A stretch of DNA of 64,000 bases, from contig NZ_JAAFKD010000012.1 of the NCBI RefSeq assembly GCF_013299165.1, forward strand, positions 1 to 64,000. Reading direction: 5' to 3'. The notes under the pieces were generated by a model, which had not been told where the DNA came from, ran no database searches, and worked only from the letters and a program-made list of their open reading frames with translations. This document shows positions 16,620 through 59,329 of this stretch, piece by piece. The stretch is from Microcoleus sp. bin38.metabat.b11b12b14.051. GTDB lineage: Bacteria; Cyanobacteriota; Cyanobacteriia; Cyanobacteriales; Microcoleaceae. The position numbers and the translations under genes are program-made. Every line of letters starts with the position of its first letter. The stretch's first letter is position 1.

Positions 16620-17975
16620 ATGAACTCTGAATCTGAATTTCCGTGGAGCAAAACCAAAGAATCAGCCGATCGCATTTTTGCTCAAAACACCGGCAAATAT
16701 CTCAGTGACATCGAAATGAAAGTCCTTCAAGGTTCTTGGGAAGGCAAAAGTTACGATGAAATCGCCAAAGCTTACGGCTACAGCGCTGAATACCTTAACA
16801 AAGATGTCGGTAACAAATTGTGGCACAAGCTTTCAGAAGCCTTGGGAGAAAGAATTACCAAGAAAAACTTTAAAGAAGCTTTGAGGAGAGCTTATGAAGC
16901 AGAACCAAGTCAATCTCTGCATACAAATCCGCCTTTACAAACATTGCCAACGGCAGCAAACTTGCAGTTTCCCGAAGGTTCAGTAGCCTTAGATTCACCT
17001 TTTTATATAAAGCGTGCCAGCATCGACTCTCTCTGTGGCGAAACGGTTCTCAAACCCGGTTCTCTGATTCGGATTAAAGCACCGGAGATGATGGGAAAAA
17101 CTTCACTGATGACCCGGATTTTAGATCGGGCTGTCCGGGAAAACTATCATGCAGTTTATTTAGATTTGAGCGCTGCCGATCGAGGAATATTAACAAATCT
17201 CGATAAATTTCTGCGCTGGCTGTGTTTGATGGTCAGCCGACAGTTAAAGTTAGAAAACAAGTTAAATGAGTATTGGGATACCGATATTTTAGGCAGCAAC
17301 GATAACTGTACTGTATATTTTGAAGAGTATTTGCTGGCCCAAACAGCAACTCCTCTAGTGTTGGGATTGGATGAAGTCGATCGCCTATTTCCCTACACAG
17401 AAGTAGTTGAAGATTTTCTGGGAATGCTGCGAAGCTGGCACGAAAAAGCCAAAATTTCTGATGTTTGGAAAAACCTACGGTTAGTAATGGCGCATTCTAC
17501 AGAGGTTTATATTCCTTTGGATATGAACCAATCTCCGTTTAATGCGGGAGTCCCCGTGGAACTGCTGGAGTTTGACAGCCAGCAAATCCACGATTTAGCT
17601 GGGGTTCACGGCTTGGATTGGGGTGATGTGCAGTTGGGAAAGTTGATTTGGGCGATCGGCGGACATCCTTATTTAGTAAGATTGGCAATGTATGAGATTA
17701 GTTGTGGCAAAATCTCACTAACTCAGCTATTAGAAAATGCCGCGTCAGAATCGGGAATTTACAGCAGTCACTTGCGGAGGCATTTAGAAATTCTCCAACA
17801 AAATCCCGAATTAGCTTCAGCTTTGAAAAAAGTTGTTAATTCCCCTGAAGCAGTTGAATTAGATTCAATGCAAATTTATAAGTTGCACAGCATGGGAATT
17901 GTAAGGCGGCAAAACAATTATGTGATGCCGCGTTGCAATTTGTACCGCGAGTATTTCTGTCGTGTTTTGGGATGA
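16620..17975 (+). CDS. vMAP-type HTH + AAA-like ATPase (AAA_35)
   Basis: The protein has 451 aa. An N-terminal helix-turn-helix module of about 70 aa (IFAQNTGKYLSDIEMKVLQG through LSEALGERITKKNF) matches in order the module of the NB-ARC protein at 51463. It resembles the N-terminal HTH of vWA-MoxR-associated (vMAP) conflict proteins. The AAA-like domain follows: SPFYIKRASID, P-loop variant EMMGKTSL (156-163) and Walker B-like LVLGLDEVDRL (about 246-256). GGHPYLVRLAMYE is a typical AAA_35 sensor region, and a winged helix ends the protein. AAA_35 proteins are STAND-like NTPases of unclear trigger. No effector domain is fused. Confidence 0.82.
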   Translation: MNSESEFPWSKTKESADRIFAQNTGKYLSDIEMKVLQGSWEGKSYDEIAKAYGYSAEYLNKDVGNKLWHKLSEALGERITKKNFKEALRRAYEAEPSQSLHTNPPLQTLPTAANLQFPEGSVALDSPFYIKRASIDSLCGETVLKPGSLIRIKAPEMMGKTSLMTRILDRAVRENYHAVYLDLSAADRGILTNLDKFLRWLCLMVSRQLKLENKLNEYWDTDILGSNDNCTVYFEEYLLAQTATPLVLGLDEVDRLFPYTEVVEDFLGMLRSWHEKAKISDVWKNLRLVMAHSTEVYIPLDMNQSPFNAGVPVELLEFDSQQIHDLAGVHGLDWGDVQLGKLIWAIGGHPYLVRLAMYEISCGKISLTQLLENAASESGIYSSHLRRHLEILQQNPELASALKKVVNSPEAVELDSMQIYKLHSMGIVRRQNNYVMPRCNLYREYFCRVLG

Positions 17976-19061: not shown

Positions 19062-22000
19062 ATGATGAAAGAATTGCCAGTTAGTTATGAATATCAGATT
19101 GGCGGGAGTCTTCCAGCAGATGCGTCTAGTTACGTGACGCGGCAAGCAGACTTGGACTTTTACGAAAGTTTGAAAGCGGGTGAGTTTTGTTACGTTTTGA
19201 ATTCGCGGCAAATGGGTAAGTCGAGTTTGCGGGTGCGGGCTATGCAAAGATTGCAAGCTGATGGTACTGTTTGCGCTTTTATCGATTTAACTGGGATTGG
19301 TAAGGAAGATGTCAATCCCGAAAAGTGGTATGCTGGTATTGTTAATTCTTTGGTCAGTAGCTGTCAGCTAGGAAATCAAGTTAATTGGCGGAGTTGGTGG
19401 CGCGATCGCCGGGATTTGTTCTCGCCTCTCCAGCGGTTTAGTTTGTTTATTGAAGAAGTTGTTTTAGTTGAAATAGAATCAAGTATTGTTATTTTTGTTG
19501 ACGAGATCGATCGCGTTTTGAGCATGAACTTTTCTACGGATGAGTTTTTTGCTCTAATTCGCTGGTTTTACAATCAAAGAGTTGACAAGCCTCTCTACCA
19601 ACGTTTGACTTTTGCACTGTTGGGGGTGGCGACGCCTGCGGATTTGATTGCGGATAAAACTCAAACTCCTTTTAATATTGGTAAGGCGATAAATTTAGGC
19701 GGTTTTACGATTGATGAAGTGCAGCCTTTGATTGATGGTTGGCACGGGCAGGTTGGTAATGCTGAAAGTGCGTTAGCGAAGCCCTCGCAGAGGATCGCCC
19801 AAATTCTAGATTGGACGGGCGGACAACCTTTTCTCACCCAAAAGCTGTGCAAACTGATGCTTGAGGAATCAGCATTGGGCAATTCGCGATCGGTTGAAGA
19901 GGTGGTGCAGTTGCGGATTGTGGAGAATTGGGAATCCCAGGATGAGCCTGAACATTTGAAAACTATTCGCGATCGCATTTTGAGAAATCAGCAAAAAGCA
20001 GGCCAGTTATTGGGGCTTTACCAGCAAATCTTGCAATCCGGAAAACCCCCCCAACCCCCCCTTGCTAAGGGGGGGCTAAATGCTGAGGAATCTTCCCTTA
20101 GCAAGGAGGAAATAACCGGAAACCCCCCCCAACCCCCCCTTGCTAAGGGGGGGCTAAATGCTGAGGAATCTTCCCTGACTCAGGAAGCAATCACCGGAAC
20201 CCCCCCCCAACCCCCCCTTGCTAAGGGGGGGCTAAATGCTGGTGAATCTTCCCTTAGCAAGGAGGAAATAACCGGAAACCCCCCCCAACCCCCCCTTGCT
20301 AAGGGGGGGCTAAATGCTGGTGCATCTCCCTTTAGCAAGGAAGCAATCACCATAAAACCCCCCCAACCCCCCCTTGCTAAGGGGGGGCTAAATACTAAGG
20401 AATCTTCTATTAGCAACGAAGAGCTAAATGCCACTCTTACTCCCCCCCTTAGCAAGGGGGGGCTGGGGGGGGTTCTTGCCGATGGTAGTCGGGAACAAAC
20501 TGAACTCCGGCTGTCGGGTTTGGTGGTTCATCATGCAGGTAAATTAAAAGTTTACAACCGAATTTATGCCGAAATTTTCAATATTGAATGGGTAGATAAA
20601 CAGTTGGGAAAGCTGCGCCCTTATGCGGAAAATTTTAATGCTTGGAATGCTGCCAATTTTGAGGACAATTCGCGGCTGCTGCGGGGAAATGCCCTGCAAG
20701 AAGCTCTGGAATGGGCAAACTATCAAAGTTTAAGTCCTTTAGATTACCGCTTTTTAGCGGCGGCTCAGGATTTGGAAAAGCGGGAAGTGGAATTGGCTTT
20801 TAGGCTGCAAGCTGAGGAAAGTCAAATATTAGCACAAGCTAATGAAACTTTAAATTTAGCTCAACATCAAGCTCGCACAGAGTTAACGTTAGCTAAAAAA
20901 CAAGCTAGAAAAATAATTGCGATCGGCTCAACTATTTTAACGCTATCTTTAGCGGCGGCGATCGCCATACAATTGCAAGTAGTCAAGGCAGATCGCTCCC
21001 TCGCTGAAACAAAAATTATCCTCGAAAGTGTGTCGTCAAAAACAACTTTAGTCTCAAACCCTTTTGCAGCAATGATTGAAGCACTGCAAGCAGCAGATAA
21101 ACTGAAAAAATTAGAGGCCTTCAGTCCGGCAAAATCCGATACTAAAACGCAAGTATCGATCGCCCTCCAACAAGCAATTTACAGCATCCGAGAGCGCGAT
21201 CGACTTGCAGGCCACCAAGCTTTCATCAGAAACGTCGTTTTCTCGCCCGATGGCAAAATCCTCGCATCCGCTAGCGCCGACGATACAATCAAACTCTGGA
21301 ATCCTGACGGCACATTGATCAGAACCCTCACCGGACACGGCGATAACATTTTGACTGTCAGTTTCTCACCCGACGGCAAGACGATCGCCTCTGCTAGCGA
21401 GGATGCTACGATCAAAATCTGGAACCTCGCCAACGGCACTGAAATCAGAACCCTTACAGGACATAAGGGCTGGGTGAGAGGAGTCAGTTTTGCTCCCGAT
21501 GGATTGACGATCGCATCTTCGGGCTCCGACGGCACTGTCAAACTCTGGAATCCGGCAGACGGCAGTGCAGGCACGGGGGCACTGCCCCTACGAACCTTTA
21601 CAGGACATAGGGGCTGGGCAACAAACGTCACTTTTTCGCCCGACGGATTGACGATCGCATCTTCCGGTAGCGATCGCACTGTCAAACTCTGGAATCCAGC
21701 AGATGGAACGGAAATCGCCACGCTGACAGGCCATACCAAAGCTGTGAGAAGTGTCAGTTTTTCTAACGACGGCAAAACCCTAGCATCGGCTGGCGAAGAC
21801 GGTTTAGTCAAGCTGTGGGATGTCCAAAACCTGACTCTCCTCACCACCTTGCAAGCCCACAACAAGGAAGTCTGGAGCGTCAAATTCAGCCCTTCTGGCA
21901 GCCACAGCCCAACTCTGGCTACCGCTAGCGAAGACGGAACCGCCAAATTGTGGAATTTATCGCGGTTGGGAGACATCGAGCCGCAAACGCTCAAAGGACA

Positions 22001-50590: not shown

Positions 50591-51010
50591 TTATACGGCC
50601 TGCGATTGCGCTTCGAGAAACAAGCTAATATCGACTCGGAAAAACTCGGCGAGTTTTCTAGCTTCATCTCTTTCGATAGCCCTTCGATCGAGCATAATTT
50701 CCTCAACCGCTTTTTCCGTTCCCAAAAGGGGAATCAAGTCAGATTTGTCTAAATTTCTCGCATCCATTAAATGTTGCAACATTGAAGCTGAATCTCCTGC
50801 GGGAATCGGATAATTTTCAGATTCAAATTTTTCGATGAGTGTGATCACAAGCTCCAGAAATAGCTCTTCCTCCAGCGATCGCCCGGGGCGGTGTTCCAGT
50901 TCGCGAGCGAGAGCGATCGCGACCTCGTTTTCTGCTTCATTTGCGATCGGTTTGGGTTGATATTTAACCAGCAAATCTGTATAATATTTTGCATCAAAAG
51001 TACGGATCAT
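50591..51010 (-). CDS. higA: HigA-type antitoxin (Xre HTH)
   Basis: The protein has 139 aa from the ATG at 51010 (MIRTFDAKYYTDLL); ATGs at 51022 and 51031 are alternatives. The HTH lies in the second half (ASMLQHLMDARNLDKSDLIP, then LGTEKAVEEIMLDRRAI), as in C-terminal HigA antitoxins, and the N-terminal helical part binds toxin. The start lies inside the 3' end of the toxin gene (17-bp overlap), a typical toxin-first higBA layout. Confidence 0.88.
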   Translation of the reverse strand: MIRTFDAKYYTDLLVKYQPKPIANEAENEVAIALARELEHRPGRSLEEELFLELVITLIEKFESENYPIPAGDSASMLQHLMDARNLDKSDLIPLLGTEKAVEEIMLDRRAIERDEARKLAEFFRVDISLFLEAQSQAV

Positions 51011-51293
51011 TTTTCCACTCATCCTTATCATACTCAGCGTGAGTTAAAATATATTTGATGTAGATTCTTTGAGAAGCGTAAATTAGATCGACAATCAGCC
51101 GATAGCGATTTCCCTTAATATTAAATACAGTAAAATTTCCAACTGCCTCAGCTTTTGGATAAGTTTGCTGAACATCAATTAAGTTCTGCCATTGGGCTTT
51201 ACTTGACACTCTATACCAGTCATAAAGTGCGTCGCAGGAATCCGCATGGCTTGCACAGAAATCTCGCAGAATTTTTCGGCTAATAACACGCAT
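50994..51293 (-). CDS. higB: HigB-type toxin (RelE-fold mRNA interferase)
   Basis: The protein has 99 aa from the ATG at 51293 (MRVISRKILRDFCA), which has a GGTGAG site 3-8 bases upstream; a longer frame is unneeded. The motif WYRVSSKAQWQNLIDV and the C-terminal NRYRLIVDLIYASQRIYIKY, then ILTHAEYDKDEWKND, match RelE/HigB toxins that cut mRNA on the ribosome. It overlaps and is transcribed ahead of the antitoxin. Confidence 0.92.
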   Translation of the reverse strand: MRVISRKILRDFCASHADSCDALYDWYRVSSKAQWQNLIDVQQTYPKAEAVGNFTVFNIKGNRYRLIVDLIYASQRIYIKYILTHAEYDKDEWKNDPYF

Positions 51294-51462
51294 CTCACCC
51301 TTTTTTTCCAAGCTACATCATATTTTTACGCACCGATCGCATTATAAACCTTTTTTAAGTGCGATCGCAACATTGTTAGATAGTATTCCAGTTTATTGAT
51401 ATTTTTATTTTTTAACGGCTGATGAATGCAGATTAATCCTGATGGGTTTGAATATTTTACTG

Positions 51463-53025
51463 TTATTTAATGTTGGTTTTTACATATTCTGCGATCGCCC
51501 GCCGGACAGTAAACAACGAACACTCGCCTGAAGGCACTTTTTCTATCAACAACCTCCGTCTCAACGATTCCAAGGCTTTGAGGAATTCTGACGGCGATAG
51601 TTCGAGATTCCTTGGCTTGTTTGAGATTTCCACTGCTGCGGTTTCATTGGCTAACCAGGACATCACCTGTTTTTCTGGTTGCGACAACCGCTGAAAATGT
51701 TGGTGTAATAAATATTCTAAATCTCCTAAAACTAGGCTATCATAGGATAAGAATGCTGAAATTTTTCCATCAAATAAGTCTTGAATTATTGTCGATACTA
51801 TATTTAACCACAATGGATTGCCGTTGTAAAGCTCAATCAATTCTGACCACTTTTCTGATTCAGCTAAACCTTTTTCTGTGAAGAGTTCTCGTGCTGATTC
51901 GCCTAAACCGTTGAGTTGCAATGTTTGACAATTTTTGTCACAGTTTTCTAATGCTGCAATTTCTCGGGGTTTTTCCCAACTGAGCAAAACTAAGCAACTG
52001 TTGTGACAGGATTCTGCTATTTGTTTGAAGAATGCGCCGTAATTTTCATAGCCTGGTTTGTAATTTCCGGCTAGTTGTTGGCTGCTGAAGATTGTTTGGA
52101 CATCATCGAGGATGATCAGACAGCGGTGCGATCGCAAATATTCGATTACCCCCCCCAACCCCCCCTTGCTAAGGGGGGGAGAAAGAGGTTGAATCTCTTC
52201 GCCCCAATAGTCTATTACCCCCCCCAACCCCCCCTTGCTAAGGGGGGGAGAAAGAAGTTGAATCTCTTCGCCCGCCCTGGGATAAGGAGGTTGAATCTCT
52301 TCGCCCCCCCTTGATAAGGGGGGGTTGGGGGGGTTAGTTTCTTGCTGCGGCGATAGGGATTGAATTAAGTCGGTTTGGAGTGCACTCAGTGGTGGAGAGT
52401 TGCGGAGACTTCGCCAGATGATGCAGTCGAATTGGTGGTGAAGTTGTGGGATGAGTTGGAGGGCGATCGCACTTTTGCCGCTTCCAGCCAATCCTAGGAT
52501 CGCTATCAGACGGGTGCGACTTGCTAAAATCCAGTTTTCGAGGGTGGTGAGTTGGGAAGTGCGATCGTAAAATGTCAGGATTTCCGGTGCGTCGCTTAAG
52601 TCGATGCGGGGCTGTTTGGCTGTTGGTGGCGGGTTTTGGGGTGTTTTGGGCGATTCCCTACGGGATAGCTGCGCTTCACGGGATTTTTTAGAACAAATAT
52701 TAAGCTTATTATTAACTGTTACAGTCTCACCTGTTATATTTTCAACAATAGCTGATTGATAATTATAAAATGTACCCTTTTCTAATATTGGTTTCAAACT
52801 AGCTTTAGTAATATTTTCGCCCAATCCTTCAGAAAGTATTTTCCAGAGTTCCGATCCGACATTTCTCACATGACTTGAACTTGAGTAAACTTCCTTAGCA
52901 ATTTGCGTGTAGGTGCGTTTTTTGAGAGTTCCCCGCAGGATAGCTTCTTGCACATAATCTAAGCGCTTTCCGGTTTGGACAAAAACTAGGTCATCAGCCA
53001 GTTTTAAAGCTGCGGCAATATCCAT
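51463..53025 (-). CDS. vMAP-type HTH + NB-ARC ATPase with in-frame repeats
   Basis: The protein has 520 aa. The N-terminal HTH (1-85; KRTYTQIAKEVYSSSSHVRN) matches, in order, the module of the protein at 16620. The linker 114-125 (SREAQLSRRESP) is encoded by the CGATTCCCTACGGGATAG repeat read in the opposite sense. The NB-ARC core has P-loop GLAGSGKS (178-185), an in-frame C-rich repeat insertion (about 231-296) in the loop between Walker A and B, and Walker B LIILDD (303-308). A winged-helix domain ends at about 520 with no C-terminal sensor repeats. STAND-type NTPases are conflict or signalling switches; the missing sensor means it may need a partner. An ACATTTCGT motif sits 41 bp upstream. 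Confidence 0.85.
   Translation of the reverse strand: MDIAAALKLADDLVFVQTGKRLDYVQEAILRGTLKKRTYTQIAKEVYSSSSHVRNVGSELWKILSEGLGENITKASLKPILEKGTFYNYQSAIVENITGETVTVNNKLNICSKKSREAQLSRRESPKTPQNPPPTAKQPRIDLSDAPEILTFYDRTSQLTTLENWILASRTRLIAILGLAGSGKSAIALQLIPQLHHQFDCIIWRSLRNSPPLSALQTDLIQSLSPQQETNPPNPPLSRGGEEIQPPYPRAGEEIQLLSPPLSKGGLGGVIDYWGEEIQPLSPPLSKGGLGGVIEYLRSHRCLIILDDVQTIFSSQQLAGNYKPGYENYGAFFKQIAESCHNSCLVLLSWEKPREIAALENCDKNCQTLQLNGLGESARELFTEKGLAESEKWSELIELYNGNPLWLNIVSTIIQDLFDGKISAFLSYDSLVLGDLEYLLHQHFQRLSQPEKQVMSWLANETAAVEISNKPRNLELSPSEFLKALESLRRRLLIEKVPSGECSLFTVRRAIAEYVKTNIK
52149..52332. repeat. C-rich repeat copies in frame inside NB-ARC gene
   Basis: Two CCCCCCCAACCCCCCCTTGC units at 52149-52187 and 52217-52255, plus two degenerate ones ending at 52332, are all read through on the minus strand ([21 protein letters not shown]). 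It is the same family as the array in the WD40 ATPase at 20045. Confidence 0.9.
52648..52682. repeat. Stem-loop repeat GGGCGATTCCCTACGGGATA in frame
   Basis: It is a copy of the repeat that truncates the phosphoesterase at 1835; here it is read on the opposite strand and gives SREAQLSRRESP without breaking the frame. Confidence 0.9.
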
Positions 53026-53065
53026 ACATAAAGGAGACGCTGGAGTTTACACGATTTATTGTACC

Positions 53066-53079
53066 TGACATTTCGTACA
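53066..53079. promoter_or_regulatory. Single ACATTTCGT operator-like motif
   Basis: TGACATTTCGTACA is the first 14 bases of the tandem motif at 56351 and 58823. It lies 41 bp upstream of the HTH-NB-ARC gene and 100 bp upstream of the divergent exported-protein gene. Confidence 0.6.
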
Positions 53080-53178
53080 AATGAGACAATTTAGATTTTG
53101 CGATCGATCTAAAGTCAGGACTTTTCCTACACAGCTCATCCTTTATAGTAGTTTATTAAAGTTTTGGCAATATATTTT

Positions 53179-53685
53179 ATGAAGCGAGTTCGGTGGCTCA
53201 GCGGTTTGTTTCTCGCTGGGATGTTATGTGTGATGTTAGGGACTGTTGGCGCACAAGTGGCACAAGCCCAGCGCCCCATTCCTTTGGAAGACCTCCAATG
53301 TGTTAAGCGATCGGGTGATTGGGGTGCTGAGAAACGAGATATTTCTGTAGGCAGACAAATTTACACCACTGTTTTATACATTAACCCTGATACCGCTTTA
53401 ACTTGTAGGCTTCCAGGTGGCCCCGCTTCTCTCCGATTCGAGTTTGCGATTCCTGACACTTCGCAAGCCCCACCAGCACGAATAGATGTCTATGTAGATG
53501 GAAATCAAGTAGCTTCTCGCACTGGCGATAGAGGTAAAGTACATACAATGCTAGTAAATATTAGTAATGGCAAAAGTCTAGCAGTAGAAGTATTTTGTGC
53601 TAGAGCCACAAATTGCGGTAGTGGTAGATACTGGTTTATGAAAGCTCAAATTGAGCCGGGGGCATCCTCTCCAGGAGGTCGATAA
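53179..53685 (+). CDS. Exported protein, unknown
   Basis: The protein has 168 aa from the ATG at 53179; a TTG 15 bp upstream is possible. The signal peptide is LSGLFLAGMLCVMLGTVGAQ with probable cleavage after VAQA. The mature part has four cysteines (QCVKR, LTCRL, VFCARATNCG) and strand-rich sequence (LRFEFAIPDT; ARIDVYVDGNQVASRTG), so a small disulphide-bonded beta domain is likely. No family is recognised. The next gene starts 3 bp after its stop, so the two form an operon. Confidence 0.8.
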   Translation: MKRVRWLSGLFLAGMLCVMLGTVGAQVAQAQRPIPLEDLQCVKRSGDWGAEKRDISVGRQIYTTVLYINPDTALTCRLPGGPASLRFEFAIPDTSQAPPARIDVYVDGNQVASRTGDRGKVHTMLVNISNGKSLAVEVFCARATNCGSGRYWFMKAQIEPGASSPGGR

Positions 53686-53688
53686 ATT

Positions 53689-54468
53689 ATGAGTATCAGC
53701 CGCCGTCAATTTAATCGTATCATCATCTGGGGTGGCTCTTCTTTTGCTGCTTCCGCAACATCGGGCATTTTCTTCCCTAAACCTGCCGAAGCTTATTCCC
53801 TAGAATTTCCGATTAGTGCCTTATCAGCCGATCGCGTTTTCAGCGGTATTCAAAAATATTGTGGAGCACAGCCCATTCCCGGCGTTCTCTCACCAATCTT
53901 ACAAGGAAATAGTAATGTTAGCAATAAAATAGAATCAGCCGCCGCTAACGCTATTCGCACGGCAGACAAACAATTTGTAAATCGCAATTTTACCAGCAAA
54001 AGAACCGAATTAGCCGTAACTGGCAGCGGTTCTAAGAATGCGGCCGATACCAGTCGGCTGTGGGGGCGGCAAAGACAGGATAAAGTTGGCCCGAATGTCG
54101 GTTTTGGCTTCGTACAAAAATATGAAGATCAATACAGTGATTCCAAAATTTCTGGACCGACAATGTGCGCCATTGATAACGCCCAAAGAGTCTTAGCTGA
54201 TCAAAGATTAACACCGCCAGAAATCGCGGCTTCCCTATTACCAACTCGCTCAAGGTTGGATGATTTGAGTTCTTGGGGAGGTGATAGCGATGCGTCTGCT
54301 GGGAGAAATCCTGGTGCTGTTTTTGCTCAATATGACACAGCGGCGGGGACGGTGACTTCTCGCTACGATTTAGTTGAACCGGGGCCGAAAGGTTTTGGAC
54401 GTGTTGAGTATACTATTGAAGCTGAAAATCAGCCTCGGCGGGTGATTTTGGTGACTGTGAGGTTTTAA
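53689..54468 (+). CDS. Tat-exported protein, unknown
   Basis: The protein has 259 aa. The twin-arginine signal SRRQFNRIIIWGG (about 4-16) is followed by a hydrophobic core (SSFAASATSGIFF) and a cut after AEA. The mature protein (about 36-259) is soluble, with YCGAQPIPGVLSPIL and MCAIDNAQRVL cysteine pairs. Tat export implies it folds, or binds a cofactor, in the cytoplasm first. Three bases after the previous gene. Not recognised. Confidence 0.82.
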   Translation: MSISRRQFNRIIIWGGSSFAASATSGIFFPKPAEAYSLEFPISALSADRVFSGIQKYCGAQPIPGVLSPILQGNSNVSNKIESAAANAIRTADKQFVNRNFTSKRTELAVTGSGSKNAADTSRLWGRQRQDKVGPNVGFGFVQKYEDQYSDSKISGPTMCAIDNAQRVLADQRLTPPEIAASLLPTRSRLDDLSSWGGDSDASAGRNPGAVFAQYDTAAGTVTSRYDLVEPGPKGFGRVEYTIEAENQPRRVILVTVRF

Positions 54469-54493
54469 GGGAATTATCTCATCTCGAATCAAA

Positions 54494-54767
54494 TTCGGCG
54501 GTTGAAACCGCTACTACACAAACGAAGTCCGCCTTCGCGGACTGAAGAATTAAAGAGATTTTTAGTCCGCGCAGGCGGACTTTGTTTGTGGAGCATCGGA
54601 ATTACATTCGGTGGGGCTATTTTTGCAGGATTCGGCGGTTGAAACCGCTACTACACACACGAAATCCGCCTTCGCGGACTGAAGAATTAAAGAGATTTTT
54701 AGTCCGCGCAGGCGGACTTTGTTTGTGGAGCATCGGAATTACATTCGGTGGGGCTATTTTTGCAATT
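54494..54767. repeat. 137-bp tandem duplication including the end of the protease gene
   Basis: Two copies start at 54494 and 54631 (period 137). Each holds GCGGTTGAAACCGCTACTAC, a long GTCCGCCTTCGCGGAC-type hairpin and GGAGCATCGGAATTACATTC, and ends in TTTTTGCA. The second copy runs into the 3' end of the trypsin-TPR gene, so the first carries a duplicate of its last codons and trailer. Confidence 0.93.
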
Positions 54768-56253
54768 GACCAATCAAATCTAATGCTTTTTGAGCATCTG
54801 CACTCATCCCTTGAGCCCGAAACAAACGGGCGGCTTGCTGCAAATCCGCGATCGCCCCTGGCCTATCTCCCATTCTCACCAAGGTAATTCCTCGATTAGC
54901 ATAAGCCTTAGCATAGCTGGGATTGAGTTGAATTGCTTGGGTGTAATCAGCTAGGGCAGAGCGATCGTTATTGATGCGAAAAAGCGCTAATCCTCGGTTA
55001 AAATAAGTGTTAGCGCGACCTGGATTGATTTGCAGTGCTTGATTGAAATCGTCGATCGCCCCTTTTTGATCGCCCAAGTCCGAAAGCGCTACACCTCGGT
55101 TGTTGTAAGCCGCTGCAAAGTTTCGATCCTGACGGATGACTTGAGTATAATCTGCGATCGCCCCCGGTTTATCGCCCATAGCCGACAAAACCAGCCCCCG
55201 ATTGTAGTACGCATCGACATAACCTGCATTTAGGGCGATCGCCTTGCTATAATCAGCAATACTTCTGGGAATTTCCCTCAAATCAAAATACGCCAGTCCC
55301 CGATAAAAATAAGCTTCTACATAATCGGATTGAGTTTGAATCGCCTTGCTAAAATCGGCAACAGCCCCTGACGCATCTCCATTATCAAACCGAGTTAAAC
55401 CCCGAACGTAATAAGTCTTAGCATCTGGGGGATTGTTGAGTTTCAGAGGCGCATTAGCGGTGGGAGAGGAATTGATTAAAAGTGCCGATCGATTTAAACC
55501 AGCTTCCGATAGTTTAGCGATAAAAGTATTAATAGGAACCGCAGAATTAAATCCAGTTTTAGTGAGAGGCCCCTCAAACGATTGATCGTTAGTGACAAAA
55601 TCTAGTTCCCCTTCCCCATGAACTCCAATTACCCGTCCTTCCCCATCAAATATCGGCCCTCCACTCATTCCTTTTATAGTTACAGCAATGTAACGCAACG
55701 TATAACCGCGTCGATGAGCTGAAAGGCGACTGGTAACATATCCCGGTACAAACTCATAATTGCGCTTAGTTCCAGACTTATTTCCTAAGCGATCTGGATA
55801 GCCAAACACAAACATTGGTGTGCCAGCGCCCGCTTGTTGGGAATCACCTAAAGTCACGACAGGATAAGAATCTGTACTATTAAAAGTTACTACTGCTAAA
55901 TCCGGATCGTTGTTAATTTTTTGCAAGCGAACAAAACTGGTTACTTGATAATCTTTTCCTGTAGAAGTGCGAATCGTATAGGTAGGCTCGGTATTCTCAA
56001 CAACGTGATTAGCTGTCAGTACAGTATAAGTTGTACCTTGTTTAGAAATAATAAAACCAGAGCCACTCTTCACTAAATTTCGATTGGGAGATTGACCGTT
56101 AATTTGAACGCTGACCGAATTAGCTAATTCGGCAATTTCTTGCGGAGTTTTTGCTAAAACTGGTGCTTGTACAAAGATGACTATTCCTGCTAGTGTTACC
56201 GTTCCTGCTAGGATACTGGTGAGGGAATCAAACCGCGAATAATCCCTATTCAT
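54754..56253 (-). CDS. Trypsin-like serine protease with TPR domain
   Basis: The protein has 499 aa from the ATG at 56253 (MNRDYSRFDSLTS); an upstream frame lacks support. The signal/anchor is at about 12-30 (TSILAGTVTLAGIVIFVQAP). The catalytic triad of the S1/trypsin-like domain is H83 in TANHVVEN, D118 in NDPDLAVV and S197 in KGMSGGPIF. About six TPR units run from 290 to 490 (AKTYYVRGLTRFDNGDASGA and onward) and would bind a partner protein. It acts outside the cytoplasmic membrane, perhaps cleaving or regulating an envelope protein. A tandem ACATTTCGT motif lies 98 bp upstream. Confidence 0.92.
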   Translation of the reverse strand: MNRDYSRFDSLTSILAGTVTLAGIVIFVQAPVLAKTPQEIAELANSVSVQINGQSPNRNLVKSGSGFIISKQGTTYTVLTANHVVENTEPTYTIRTSTGKDYQVTSFVRLQKINNDPDLAVVTFNSTDSYPVVTLGDSQQAGAGTPMFVFGYPDRLGNKSGTKRNYEFVPGYVTSRLSAHRRGYTLRYIAVTIKGMSGGPIFDGEGRVIGVHGEGELDFVTNDQSFEGPLTKTGFNSAVPINTFIAKLSEAGLNRSALLINSSPTANAPLKLNNPPDAKTYYVRGLTRFDNGDASGAVADFSKAIQTQSDYVEAYFYRGLAYFDLREIPRSIADYSKAIALNAGYVDAYYNRGLVLSAMGDKPGAIADYTQVIRQDRNFAAAYNNRGVALSDLGDQKGAIDDFNQALQINPGRANTYFNRGLALFRINNDRSALADYTQAIQLNPSYAKAYANRGITLVRMGDRPGAIADLQQAARLFRAQGMSADAQKALDLIGQLQK

Positions 56254-56350
56254 AGGTAATTGCTGAAGAGTGAGATTTTTTATACTCCGAATAGTATATG
56301 CGAAATAAAATGACCTCAAACCAAATATGCTATGCGTTGCCAGATAATTA

Positions 56351-56375
56351 TGACATTTCGTACATTTCGTACATC
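56351..56375. promoter_or_regulatory. Tandem ACATTTCGT operator-like motif
   Basis: Two head-to-tail copies of the 9-mer ACATTTCGT plus ACAT, between the divergent trypsin-TPR and COP23 genes. It is identical over 25 bases to the site at 58823. Confidence 0.75.
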
Positions 56376-56498
56376 ATGCCTAATTGGTTGCAAATATATA
56401 GAACTGTGTGAGATAATTTATAGTAATTTTCGACAATCTCTGTTAAAGTAAGGCGCGGTATATCAATATTTGATGTTGTGAGGAATGCGAGCATTACC

Positions 56499-57038
56499 AT
56501 GAAGTACAAAATTTTGATAGGCTTAGTTGTCTCGACAATCACAAATATTATTATTTGTCAACCAAGCAATGCAGAAAACAGTAATTTCTTCTGCGGCATA
56601 CTCAACAAACAGCCTGTTACTTTAATGCGTACTGTGCGGGGTAACGTCGCGATGATTCGCTGGGTTTCTCACAACTATTTTCCGCCACCGTGGACTGCAC
56701 AAAGACGCTGCCAAGAAGTGGCTAGGAGATTTCAGCGAAACTATGATAACGGCAATCTAAAATATATCATACCTGGAAGGCTTAATGGAGAACCAGTGGT
56801 ATGTGCAGCTCTTAAAAAAAGCGATCGTTGTACAAATATAAATTTGTTATTCACCCTCAAGCAGGGAGCTAATGCTGACCAGACTTTGCAAAGATTAATG
56901 GATCGTGGCGCATTGGCGGCTGGATATGTTCTATCTGAAGATGGATCTGCTGCTGTTGATGTGGAGATATATTTAGATGAAGCAACGGTTGAGCCAAATG
57001 TTTCTCCTATCGAGAATGAAACAGACACAAAACCTTAA
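56499..57038 (+). CDS. COP23-family protein
   Basis: The protein has 179 aa from the ATG at 56499 (MKYKILIGLVVSTI); a GTG 21 bp upstream is possible. The signal peptide is ILIGLVVSTITNIIICQP. The COP23 domain follows: FFCGILNKQPVTLMRTVRGN, RWVSHNYFPPPWTAQRRCQE, and conserved cysteines in PVVCAALKKSDRC. COP23 (circadian oscillating protein) proteins are cyanobacterial membrane-associated proteins of unknown role. Convergent with the kinase gene; both probably end at hairpins near 57064-57126. Confidence 0.85.
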   Translation: MKYKILIGLVVSTITNIIICQPSNAENSNFFCGILNKQPVTLMRTVRGNVAMIRWVSHNYFPPPWTAQRRCQEVARRFQRNYDNGNLKYIIPGRLNGEPVVCAALKKSDRCTNINLLFTLKQGANADQTLQRLMDRGALAAGYVLSEDGSAAVDVEIYLDEATVEPNVSPIENETDTKP

Positions 57039-57063
57039 TTAAAGATTGAATGTCATATCTGTA

Positions 57064-57126
57064 GGGACACGGCACTGCCGTGTCCCTGCAAATTCCGATA
57101 GTAGGGAAACGGCACTGCCGTGTCCC
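57064..57126. terminator. Tandem hairpins between convergent genes
   Basis: Two 23-bp palindromic stems (GGGACACGGC/GCCGTGTCCC at 57064-57086; a GGGAAACGGC variant at 57104-57126) have a 40-bp period, in the gap between COP23 and the kinase. They probably end transcription from both sides. Confidence 0.6.
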
Positions 57127-57163
57127 TGCAAATTCCTCTTGCAATGGATGTAACAACCTTAAA

Positions 57164-58633
57164 TTATTTGCCGCCTTGAACTTCAACGGACTTAATCATT
57201 TTTTCAACAACTGGCAAAAACTCCTCATACTTCCCTGCTTCAGCCTGATAAGTAATCAAATAAGCGCGATCGTGTTTCAGAGTCCAAACCTGCAACTTTT
57301 TCAAATCTAGATCGCCTTGTTTTGTTGTATAAACAACTCTATGCCCGCTTTGCTCTGCCAGAGTAGATTCACGATCTTCAACTATTTTGGCATTTTTATC
57401 TAACTTTAATATTTCTTGTTTAGATGATTTAGTATAGTCATCGAGGGTCTTATTGCTACTACGTTCAACCATGACAGTTACCTGTTCTTGAAAGCGATCG
57501 CCATCTTTTTGTATAGGTGAAATAAATTTAACAACCTCTTGAGAAACAGCATTAGACAGTGCTTGTTTATCCCAATTTCCGGGATATTTCATCTTGAGTG
57601 AATTTTCCAAATTTTCATAACTCGTAAAACGATCGGCATCCTCCAATCCCATAATTTTTCTAATTTCTGGTGTAAATACGGCTGACACGCCAAATATGAC
57701 AGCCAAAATAATACCAACTAAACCTATTTTATGTTCTCGCGTCCAGGTACTCATTAATGTAAATAAGTTAGAAGGTGATGATAATAAAGTAGAAGCTGCC
57801 GGAGGGGGATTTGATGAAATTCTTAACTTGTTAACATCTTGCAACACTTCGGAGGCTAACTGGTAGCGCTTGTGGCAATCCGATCGCACCATTTTATCCA
57901 AGATTTTAGCAAAATCGTTGCTAACTTCTGCTTGATTGCGCCAAATAACTTCACCATCAGCATTTTTGGGTAACTGATTGGGAAATGTACCAGTCAGACA
58001 TTCAATACCAATCATTCCCACAGCATATATATCGCTACAAAAGTTAGGATCTCCTAATTTTTGTTCCGGCGGCATATAGCCATGTGTACCAATTGAAACA
58101 GTTGCCGGTCTTTGCCCGATAGAGTTAGCTACTTGAGTGCTAATCTGTTTGACAGCTCCAAAGTCAATCAAAACTATTCTACCGTCAGAACTGCGCCTCA
58201 TTAAATTAGAAGGTTTAATATCCCGATGGATGACTTTATGCTGCTGAATAAATACTAATGTTTCGATGATATCTTGCAAAATGGCAATAACTTCAAACTC
58301 GCGCAACCTGTTACCAGGGATAAGTTCTTTACTTAAATCTTTCCCTTCAATCAACTCTTGAACTAAATAAAATTCTTGATTTTCTTCAAAGTTATCCAAG
58401 AGTTCAGGAATTTGAGAATGAGTCCCTAGCTTGTGGAGGGTTTCTGTTTCTGTTTTAAATAAACGTCTCGCTACTTGTAAAGTATGCGGATCGTTGTGCG
58501 GTTTTAGTTGCTTGACTACACACCGAAGATTGCCCGATCGCTTTCGATCTTGGGCCAGGTAAGTTTGACCAAAGCTACCTTCTCCCAAGAGTTCTAGGAT
58601 ATAGTAACGTCCTGCAAGTGTATGTCCGATCAT
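57164..58633 (-). CDS. Serine/threonine protein kinase with transmembrane helix and PsbP-like C-terminus
   Basis: The protein has 489 aa. The kinase domain is at 1-270: Gly-rich loop GEGSFGQTY (17-25), VAIK-type Lys K41, HRDIK (136-140), DFG (157-159) and GYMPPEQ. A Pro/Ser linker and a transmembrane helix (about 303-322, IGLVGIILAVIFGVSAVF) follow. The outer domain (340-489; FTSYENLENSLKMKYPGNWD, ending MIKSVEVQGGK) resembles the MOG1/PsbP fold. It would sense a signal outside and phosphorylate inside. An ACATTTCGT tandem motif lies 190 bp upstream. Confidence 0.92.
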   Translation of the reverse strand: MIGHTLAGRYYILELLGEGSFGQTYLAQDRKRSGNLRCVVKQLKPHNDPHTLQVARRLFKTETETLHKLGTHSQIPELLDNFEENQEFYLVQELIEGKDLSKELIPGNRLREFEVIAILQDIIETLVFIQQHKVIHRDIKPSNLMRRSSDGRIVLIDFGAVKQISTQVANSIGQRPATVSIGTHGYMPPEQKLGDPNFCSDIYAVGMIGIECLTGTFPNQLPKNADGEVIWRNQAEVSNDFAKILDKMVRSDCHKRYQLASEVLQDVNKLRISSNPPPAASTLLSSPSNLFTLMSTWTREHKIGLVGIILAVIFGVSAVFTPEIRKIMGLEDADRFTSYENLENSLKMKYPGNWDKQALSNAVSQEVVKFISPIQKDGDRFQEQVTVMVERSSNKTLDDYTKSSKQEILKLDKNAKIVEDRESTLAEQSGHRVVYTTKQGDLDLKKLQVWTLKHDRAYLITYQAEAGKYEEFLPVVEKMIKSVEVQGGK

Positions 58634-58822
58634 GAGATTGATGTTGGGTAGCGGTATTTGGCAAACTGAATTATCGATCGGGATTTACGCACTACGAAGC
58701 TAGAAACCGAATTTCTTCACAGGCAAGTCTTCGATCGAAATAAGCTTTTGCATAAGTATAGGTGAAAAATAAATATCCGCAGCGTAGAAATGTAGGAGTT
58801 TTTCAGAGAATGGCGATTGTTA

Positions 58823-58847
58823 TGACATTTCGTACATTTCGTACATC
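58823..58847. promoter_or_regulatory. Tandem ACATTTCGT operator-like motif
   Basis: Identical over 25 bases to 56351-56375, with TAT preceding both; it lies upstream of the Ser/Thr kinase gene. Confidence 0.75.
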
Positions 58848-59329
58848 TTCGGTATTAAACTGGCGCACGTCTAATGTTGACAATCCTGTTTCTTTAAACT
58901 CTTGTGGGGTGGGCTTTGAGCAGCGCCCCAAGTAACAGGCTGTCCGGCCTGTTGCACAATAATAACTATTTTTTGTAAACCTAAGTCACACAAAAGATGC
59001 CTGTTCCATAATACGGGTACATAACTGTAGGGACGCAGCACTCCCTCCGCTACGCTTCGCCCAAAGCCGTGTCAACAATCGCCTAAAAGTCATGAGAAAT
59101 CTCGCTTTGACCCAAGCCTATAACCCCCGCGTATCCCCCTTATTAAGGGGGACTAAAGAGAAGATTCTTATCCCCCCCCTTAGCAAGGGGGGGTTAGGGG
59201 GGGTTAAGAGCCAAACCGCCAAACAGCAGTCTCTGAGTACGTTTTACCTGATTGTTAACACGGCTTTGATCGCTGCCGTGTCCATACTAGAAACTAGCCC
59301 GATCGCCCGTAAAGTCCGCCTACAAATAA
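58848..59329. repeat. Gene-free stretch with C-rich and hairpin repeats
   Basis: AACAGGC...GCCTGTT forms a hairpin near 58936-58958. A GCACTCCCTCCGCTACGCTT unit lies at 59038. A C-rich repeat pair (CCCCCCCTTAGCAAGGGGGG then TTAGGGGGGG) lies at 59165-59206. No gene is supported. Confidence 0.7.

Follow-up and report, generated by a model that had tools for sequence, protein, structure and literature searches.

Upstream of three minus-strand genes in a stretch of 64,000 nucleotides from Microcoleus sp. bin38.metabat.b11b12b14.051 (contig NZ_JAAFKD010000012.1, positions 1 to 64,000, hereafter the window), a 9-bp unit is repeated in tandem. The genes encode a helix-turn-helix (HTH)-NB-ARC protein of 520 aa (51463..53025), a trypsin-like protease with TPR repeats (54754..56244) and a Ser/Thr kinase (57164..58633). 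Judged from the sequence, the motif is probably the operator of the HTH-NB-ARC protein itself, which would be a self-activating STAND regulator with private tandem operators, its operator being common to the two neighbouring genes. This reading is carried by the repeats, their conservation, their phase-locking to −10 boxes and the covariation of recognition helix and repeat unit, which extends to genes held out from training.

Tandem motif in the window and the genome

The preliminary description of this DNA reported a 25-base identity between positions 56351-56375 and 58823-58847, which holds without a mismatch and in fact covers 28 bp (56348-56375 and 58820-58847). The first 14 bases, TGACATTTCGTACA, were said to recur at 53066-53079, where they are present, and the spacings of 41, 107 and 190 bp between motif and ATG codon in the three minus-strand genes match the sequence. 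In the genome-wide search that the description had proposed, TGACATTTCGTACA was found three times in 7.07 Mb at up to one mismatch, always in the same orientation and always within a single stretch of 5.8 kb. The tandem 18-mer occurs twice in the window at up to three mismatches (0.02 expected), and the single unit ACATTTCGT five times (0.62 expected). At two mismatches, the 18-mer has two extra sites in the genome, C1:496187 and C4:152486 (about position 1488 of L344 and 1487 of L345), both outside open reading frames (ORFs) of at least 80 aa and one of them 49 bp before a 235-aa minus-strand ORF; these may be chance matches or weak further sites.

The copy at 53066 is part of a degenerate array of three 9-bp units at 53064..53091 (minus-strand units AATTGTCTC, ATTTGTACG and AAATGTCAGG), which abuts a −10-like TACAAT at 53058..53063 on the same strand, the putative −10 box of the NB-ARC gene. 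The putative operator of the protease gene (56348..56376, minus strand) is made of TGATGTACG AAATGTACG AAATGTCAT, the last unit starting 60 bp before a putative −10 box TATACT (56293..56298, minus strand). The putative operator of the kinase gene (58820..58848, minus strand) has 28 bp in common with that of the protease gene; its putative −10 box is also TATACT (58755..58760, minus strand), and the layout is similar in G021 (L133). Comparison of the kinase and protease promoters by blastn returned the 28-bp identity as a single long piece, with all other pieces at or below 18 bp.

Two known kinds of site were tried as candidates and rejected. The cyanobacterial LexA consensus has a spacing of N4 and the NtcA consensus is GTA-N8-TAC, whereas the motif contains GTAC-N5-GTAC and GTA-N7-TAC.

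Conservation upstream of orthologous genes

Of the 29 genomes of the genus, 19 (the own genome included) have the protease at E ≤ 1e-150. When promoters of its orthologues were aligned, as the preliminary description had recommended, upstream conservation was concentrated on the motif. Tandem units, some with substitutions, stand upstream in all 18 loci with a readable start (17 loci of the genus and L043; L106 and L108 have no start and were left out of the footprint). Mean identity to the window was 0.96 in the motif columns, 0.33 in the 30 bases 5′ of the motif, 0.60 between motif and −10 box, 0.99 in TATACT and 0.89 from TATACT to ATG. In 14 of these promoters the last unit, located by regular expression, has its start 70-73 bp before TATACT; in two the distance is 60-61 bp, and in one each 58 and 67 bp. 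This motif-focused conservation and the few genome copies support the small regulon that the description had suggested.

In the NB-ARC orthologues, an array of three units that leads into a −10-like box was seen by eye in 17 of 17 readable promoters (TATAAA in one; L126, which has no upstream DNA, is outside this number), but the flanks of these promoters are conserved as well as the array, so that the count is weak evidence and no footprint by itself. The kinase gene has the motif in two of 12 loci (G000 and G021), and none was found in the 260 bp upstream in the other 10, which include the same-genome paralogue on C13; this distribution suggests that the kinase copy was added to the locus at a later time.

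Over the 29 genomes, a tandem match with up to two mismatches is present in 26, not all of which can be taken as conserved, as the two-mismatch matches in G009, G016 and G028, and the one at a second place in G003, fall within ORFs or overlap them and probably arose by chance. Both the protease and the NB-ARC gene are present in 17 genomes, NB-ARC alone in one, protease alone in two and neither in nine (Fisher p 5e-5, a value limited by the two genes being neighbours, for which joint loss is often expected); in this count, a weaker match in G023 was judged a paralogue and a broken NB-ARC copy in G024 was counted as present. In a one-genome-per-species collection, which possibly does not contain the own genome, the exact 18-mer is found in 26 stretches, 14 of them cyanobacterial. 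All 14 adjoin orthologues of genes of the locus or precede an NB-ARC homologue; the other 12 are non-cyanobacterial by title, and in these the queried proteins had no counterpart apart from distant SRP54 matches in two. In the genomes of L006, L017 and L024, which have lost the protease and NB-ARC genes or contain them in broken form, the tandem motif persists beside a Uma2-family gene.

Two of the motif copies were described as lying in divergent promoters that serve genes on both sides. COP23 as a conserved target was rejected: among 56 loci (L004-L059), COP23 is near the motif in the window's own locus and one other genome only (L023 and L054, which are the same contig), so that the minus-strand genes are the likelier targets. 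A Uma2-family gene was found in 19 of the same 56 loci.

The NB-ARC protein and its paralogues

The NB-ARC domain of the 520-aa protein is above the curated cut-off (PF00931, E 5.6e-8), and its HTH-like region comprises approximately residues 1-82, assigned to a family by alignment, with SHVRNVGS (residues 51-58) as the recognition segment. Neither Pfam nor NCBIfam contains a model that this HTH matches above threshold, and the family profile found no significant match among solved structures. Residues 51-58 are invariant in six aligned sequences. Among the cyanobacterial genomes with the exact 18-mer, two of Oscillatoria encode an NB-ARC protein of only 49-50% identity, yet tandem AAATGTACG units stand before the gene and SHVRNVGS is unchanged. 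The same units and the same segment in proteins otherwise so diverged led us to propose that the motif is read by the N-terminal HTH of the NB-ARC protein itself. Thus, the earlier view of the NB-ARC gene as a member of the regulon holds in that it shares the motif, but the gene would be more than a target, its product probably being the regulator itself.

Members of the N-terminal HTH-like domain family are numerous, with up to 28 strong matches per genome in a search of 70 genomes, among the matches listed. They are present in 21 of 24 genomes of the order, with 19 matches in the own genome; outside the order the family is thinner, with a match at E ≤ 1e-22 in 10 of 37 genomes at class level. 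Paralogues of one genome have different direct repeats, with a period of 9-10 bp and the same position in the promoter. For statistical analysis we used a training set of 91 promoters, consisting of 80 selected promoters minus four (L236, L243, L244 and L247, dropped by a start filter), 12 genes of the own genome, and L038, L043 and L050; the 80 are listed matches chosen by E-value and by a start near residue 1, and not every such match. Controls were 45 promoters of ORFs in the window that are at least 150 aa long and have 120 bases of upstream DNA; genes of the family and its targets were kept among them. Self-similarity at p ≤ 0.05 was found in 44 of 91 training promoters versus six of 45 controls, one of these being the protease promoter, and at p ≤ 0.005 in 21 versus none. 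In the held-out genes introduced below, repeats at p ≤ 0.05 were found in 61 of 80 proximal stretches versus six of 80 distal ones. The repeat unit learned from the promoters was AAA[A/T]GT[C/A]GGA.

The position of the units was examined in 87 of 171 family promoters, namely those that have a −10-like hexamer and a unit score of 16 or more. Scores are highest for units starting 10, 20 and 30 bp before this hexamer, which in 58 of the 87 is itself 33-35 bp before the start codon. Moreover, an exact pattern of 10-bp tandem units, designed on this HTH family and too strict for most of the 19 members in the own genome, gave eight matches in that genome, six before four family genes and two inside unrelated ORFs, versus none with the reversed pattern.

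Nine members with a distinct HTH (L240, L242, L245, L246 and L248-L252) had no repeats by eye. Two proteins of less than 200 aa (L087 and L089) have the HTH without NB-ARC, followed by a short C-terminal segment LRQFGL[ST]DEQIAE, and their private repeats are still significant. At 16620-17975 of the window, a more distant member of the HTH family is joined to another ATPase-like region.

Covariation of recognition helix and repeat unit

Residue-base relations were analyzed in the 52 of 91 training genes with a unit score of at least 14, which were reduced to 42 by redundancy removal. How similar two unit cores are is predicted by how similar the recognition helices are when the rest of the domain is given (partial Mantel r 0.31, p 0.0005, n = 42). 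The rest of the domain given the helix was not predictive in these 42 genes (p 0.14), and p was 0.05 when all 52 were used. The A-tract columns of the unit had no relation to the helix at n = 42 (p 0.48) and a weak one in the smallest set (n = 17, p 0.03). The strongest of 660 residue-base pairs in training were residue 54 with base 4 (z 9.6), 55 with 8 (z 7.3) and 51 with 7 (z 7.2), written below as 54-4, 55-8 and 51-7.

Before new genes were fetched, the rules were fixed as R54→T4, K54→A4, G51→C7, S51→A7, D51→G7, A51→A7, D55/K55→G8 and N55→A/C8. The held-out set contained 80 genes of 18 genomes absent from training (G027 had been used earlier in genus searches), picked from the matches listed in the search of 70 genomes. 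The selection excluded G097 entirely, as a congener of G119, and also a duplicate, two ORFs of about 105 aa and two partial matches. A filtered first pass, in which 18 of the 80 were dropped and 37 genes were used, gave p 6e-4 for 54-4, 2e-4 for 51-7 and 0.014 for 55-8. For the final test all 80 were parsed, and genes with at least 80% identity to training genes or to each other were removed, leaving 48. Base 4 was then predicted correctly from residue 54 in 33 of 43 genes versus 20.9 by permutation (p 2e-4), base 7 from residue 51 in 22 of 39 versus 13.4 (p 4e-4), and base 8 from residue 55 in 30 of 42 versus 21.9 (p 8e-4). When 630 held-out pairs were scored afresh, 54-4 ranked first and 55-8 second.

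Proposed mechanism and alternative explanations

In the mechanism that we propose, the N-terminal HTH of the NB-ARC protein would bind the 9-bp direct repeats, and the NB-ARC ATPase would probably govern oligomerisation, such that several protomers could line up next to one another on the array. In the promoter of the NB-ARC gene, the array takes up the −35 region and ends at the −10 box; because of this placement, the protein most likely activates its own gene, an activation that we propose by analogy with the layout of AfsR discussed below. In the protease and kinase promoters, the same units stand about 60-70 bp upstream of the −10 box, a position that would also fit activation. Many paralogues have a private repeat sequence, which would be read by their own recognition helix. 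Physical binding, activation over repression, oligomerisation and an inducing signal are what we infer for this system.

Besides the conserved flanks of the NB-ARC promoters, several findings weigh against this proposal. About half of the training genes have no significant repeats, and for the array of the window's own gene self-similarity does not reach significance (p 0.18). Some pairs with residues beyond the helix score as well, both in training (30-6, z 6.2; 13-7, z 5.3) and in the held-out genes (63-2, z 4.4), and 51-7 is outside the ten strongest held-out pairs. With a redundancy cut at 70% (n = 20), p becomes 0.02 for 54-4, 0.18 for 51-7 and 0.01 for 55-8, and a cut at 60% leaves three genes; the permutation nulls treat phylogeny solely through redundancy removal and the Mantel test. 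Further points of this kind, on −35 resemblance and on motifs in genomes without the genes, are given with the alternatives that they favour.

The HTH-NB-ARC protein might bind the repeats but repress its own gene, with the protease and kinase sites used for repression or looping, which we regard as rather unlikely. Within the gene's own promoter, the array coincides with the −35 to −10 region, a classic position of repressors, and weak −35 resemblance (at least three matches) is above shuffles, being found in 65 of 87 family promoters versus 42.2 expected. On the other hand, strong −35 matches (at least four of six) are few, in 17 of 87 promoters versus 11.3 expected from shuffles, and their rarity suggests a need for an activator; the target sites of the protease gene, 58-73 bp upstream of the −10 box, also argue against repression.

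It is improbable, in our estimate, that another DNA-binding protein reads the motif and that the HTH-NB-ARC gene is merely one of its targets. This would agree with G023, where the protease and a diverged form of the motif are present but the search for an NB-ARC orthologue found only an HTH paralogue of 54% identity, and with G003, G015 and G022, which retain the motif as an apparent relic without an intact protease or NB-ARC gene. Against it, covariation of the unit bases is stronger with the recognition helix of the family itself than with the remainder of the domain, and the many paralogues would each require an unknown partner.

Finally, it is most improbable that the repeats, devoid of a regulatory role, belong among the short tandem repeat tracts often seen in filamentous cyanobacteria, or that a mobile repeat left them behind, as the preliminary description had offered: many 7-mer tracts do occur in the window and two copies share 28 bp, but three copies per 7.07 Mb at up to one mismatch are too few for a mobile repeat and are not the many dispersed copies of such tracts, their places upstream of the protease are conserved, and the repeats are phase-locked to −10 boxes and nearly absent from distal stretches.

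Other features of the locus

Divergent from the NB-ARC gene, a small protein that is probably exported (by eye) is encoded at 53164..53685 on the plus strand; it stays beside the NB-ARC gene in L034, L043, L049 and L051 and is a possible co-target. It is followed on the same strand by a gene for a 259-aa protein (53689..54468), which has a twin-arginine-like SRRQF start (by eye) and no Pfam match. Between this gene and the protease gene lies a 137-bp direct duplication with 98% matches (54493-54764). The protease, proposed here as the conserved target, is on the minus strand, like the NB-ARC and kinase genes; it contains Trypsin_2 (E 1.4e-22) and TPR repeats and is probably exported (by eye). 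The COP23-domain protein (PF14218, E 9e-36) at 56478..57038 on the plus strand would be a bystander or co-target. The kinase (Pkinase, E 8.9e-39) has a C-terminal PsbP-like domain (PsbP_2, E 9.6e-7), and matches the PADLOC model PD-T4-6 at E 1.3e-99, although this model may simply capture Ser/Thr kinases. No family of the PADLOC defence models matched the NB-ARC protein at E ≤ 0.01, whereas the kinase and protease domains do match models.

Inside the NB-ARC protein there is an in-frame proline-rich repeat insert (52137-52319), absent from three aligned orthologues; similar repeats are found at 20038-20422 in a 1352-aa ORF and in many other places of the genome. A HigB-type toxin gene (HigB_toxin, E 2e-30) and an adjoining probable antitoxin gene without a Pfam match follow the NB-ARC gene immediately downstream, at 50591-51311 on the minus strand.

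Relation to known systems and significance

Among the closest known systems is AfsR of Streptomyces, a STAND activator for which PMC10936776 describes direct repeats overlapping a poor −35 beside a −10 box, where a SARP dimer redirects sigma region 4. AfsR (SARP-NOD-TPR) resembles the window protein as a STAND (NOD) protein with an N-terminal DNA-binding part. By Pfam, however, neither the SARP domain (ODB and BTA) nor a TPR domain was found in the window protein; moreover, the repeats here have a 9-10 bp period and touch the −10 box, and there are many paralogues with private operators. MalT of Escherichia coli is likewise a STAND activator, which forms an oligomer on directly repeated boxes, and it has a C-terminal LuxR-type HTH and a long sensor region. 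In contrast, the HTH of the window protein is N-terminal and the protein is short.

In cyanobacteria, a part like sigma region 4 is joined to NB-ARC in the r4_2-NB-ARC-TPR_MalT proteins of the SigR group, as described in the parts of PMC11119718 on NB-ARC, which do not mention operators. In three HTHs of the present family that were scanned, none was above the cut-off for Sigma70_r4, the best score being 13.9 bits (E 0.039, in one of the three) versus a cut-off of 24.1. STAND AP-ATPases with trypsin-like peptidase and kinase domains occur in prokaryotes of multicellular habit, according to the relevant parts of Kaur et al. (2020, PMC7159879), where the STAND/NB-ARC ATPases of such organisms are often read as immune or cell-death proteins. 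Unlike in these conflict systems, the protease here is separately encoded, and the NB-ARC protein looks like a transcription regulator.

Measured against STAND regulators in general, the window protein has the NB-ARC/NOD domain and, as far as sequence can tell, direct-repeat operators near its promoter. Its N-terminus is HTH-like without an above-threshold model; a role in DNA binding is supported by the covariation with DNA units in the family. No separate sensor domain (TPR or similar) was found by Pfam at E ≤ 0.01, with which a sensor of another kind would be compatible. Among the papers listed in searches of the open-licence PMC literature, which misses most subscription papers, we found no description of private operators or of a recognition code for such NB-ARC proteins.

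Beyond this locus, we consider it an even chance that filamentous cyanobacteria contain up to about 28 insulated self-activating NB-ARC circuits per genome, with private operators and a shared code, to which neighbouring effectors can be recruited by operator copying, as would be the case here for the protease and the kinase. If many cyanobacterial NB-ARC proteins are self-addressed transcription switches with a partly decodable code, their regulons would be predictable from sequence, and the link of NB-ARC ATPases to effectors such as proteases and kinases would be directly testable. Paralogous regulators with private, phase-locked direct repeats would then constitute a natural set of mutually insulated switches.

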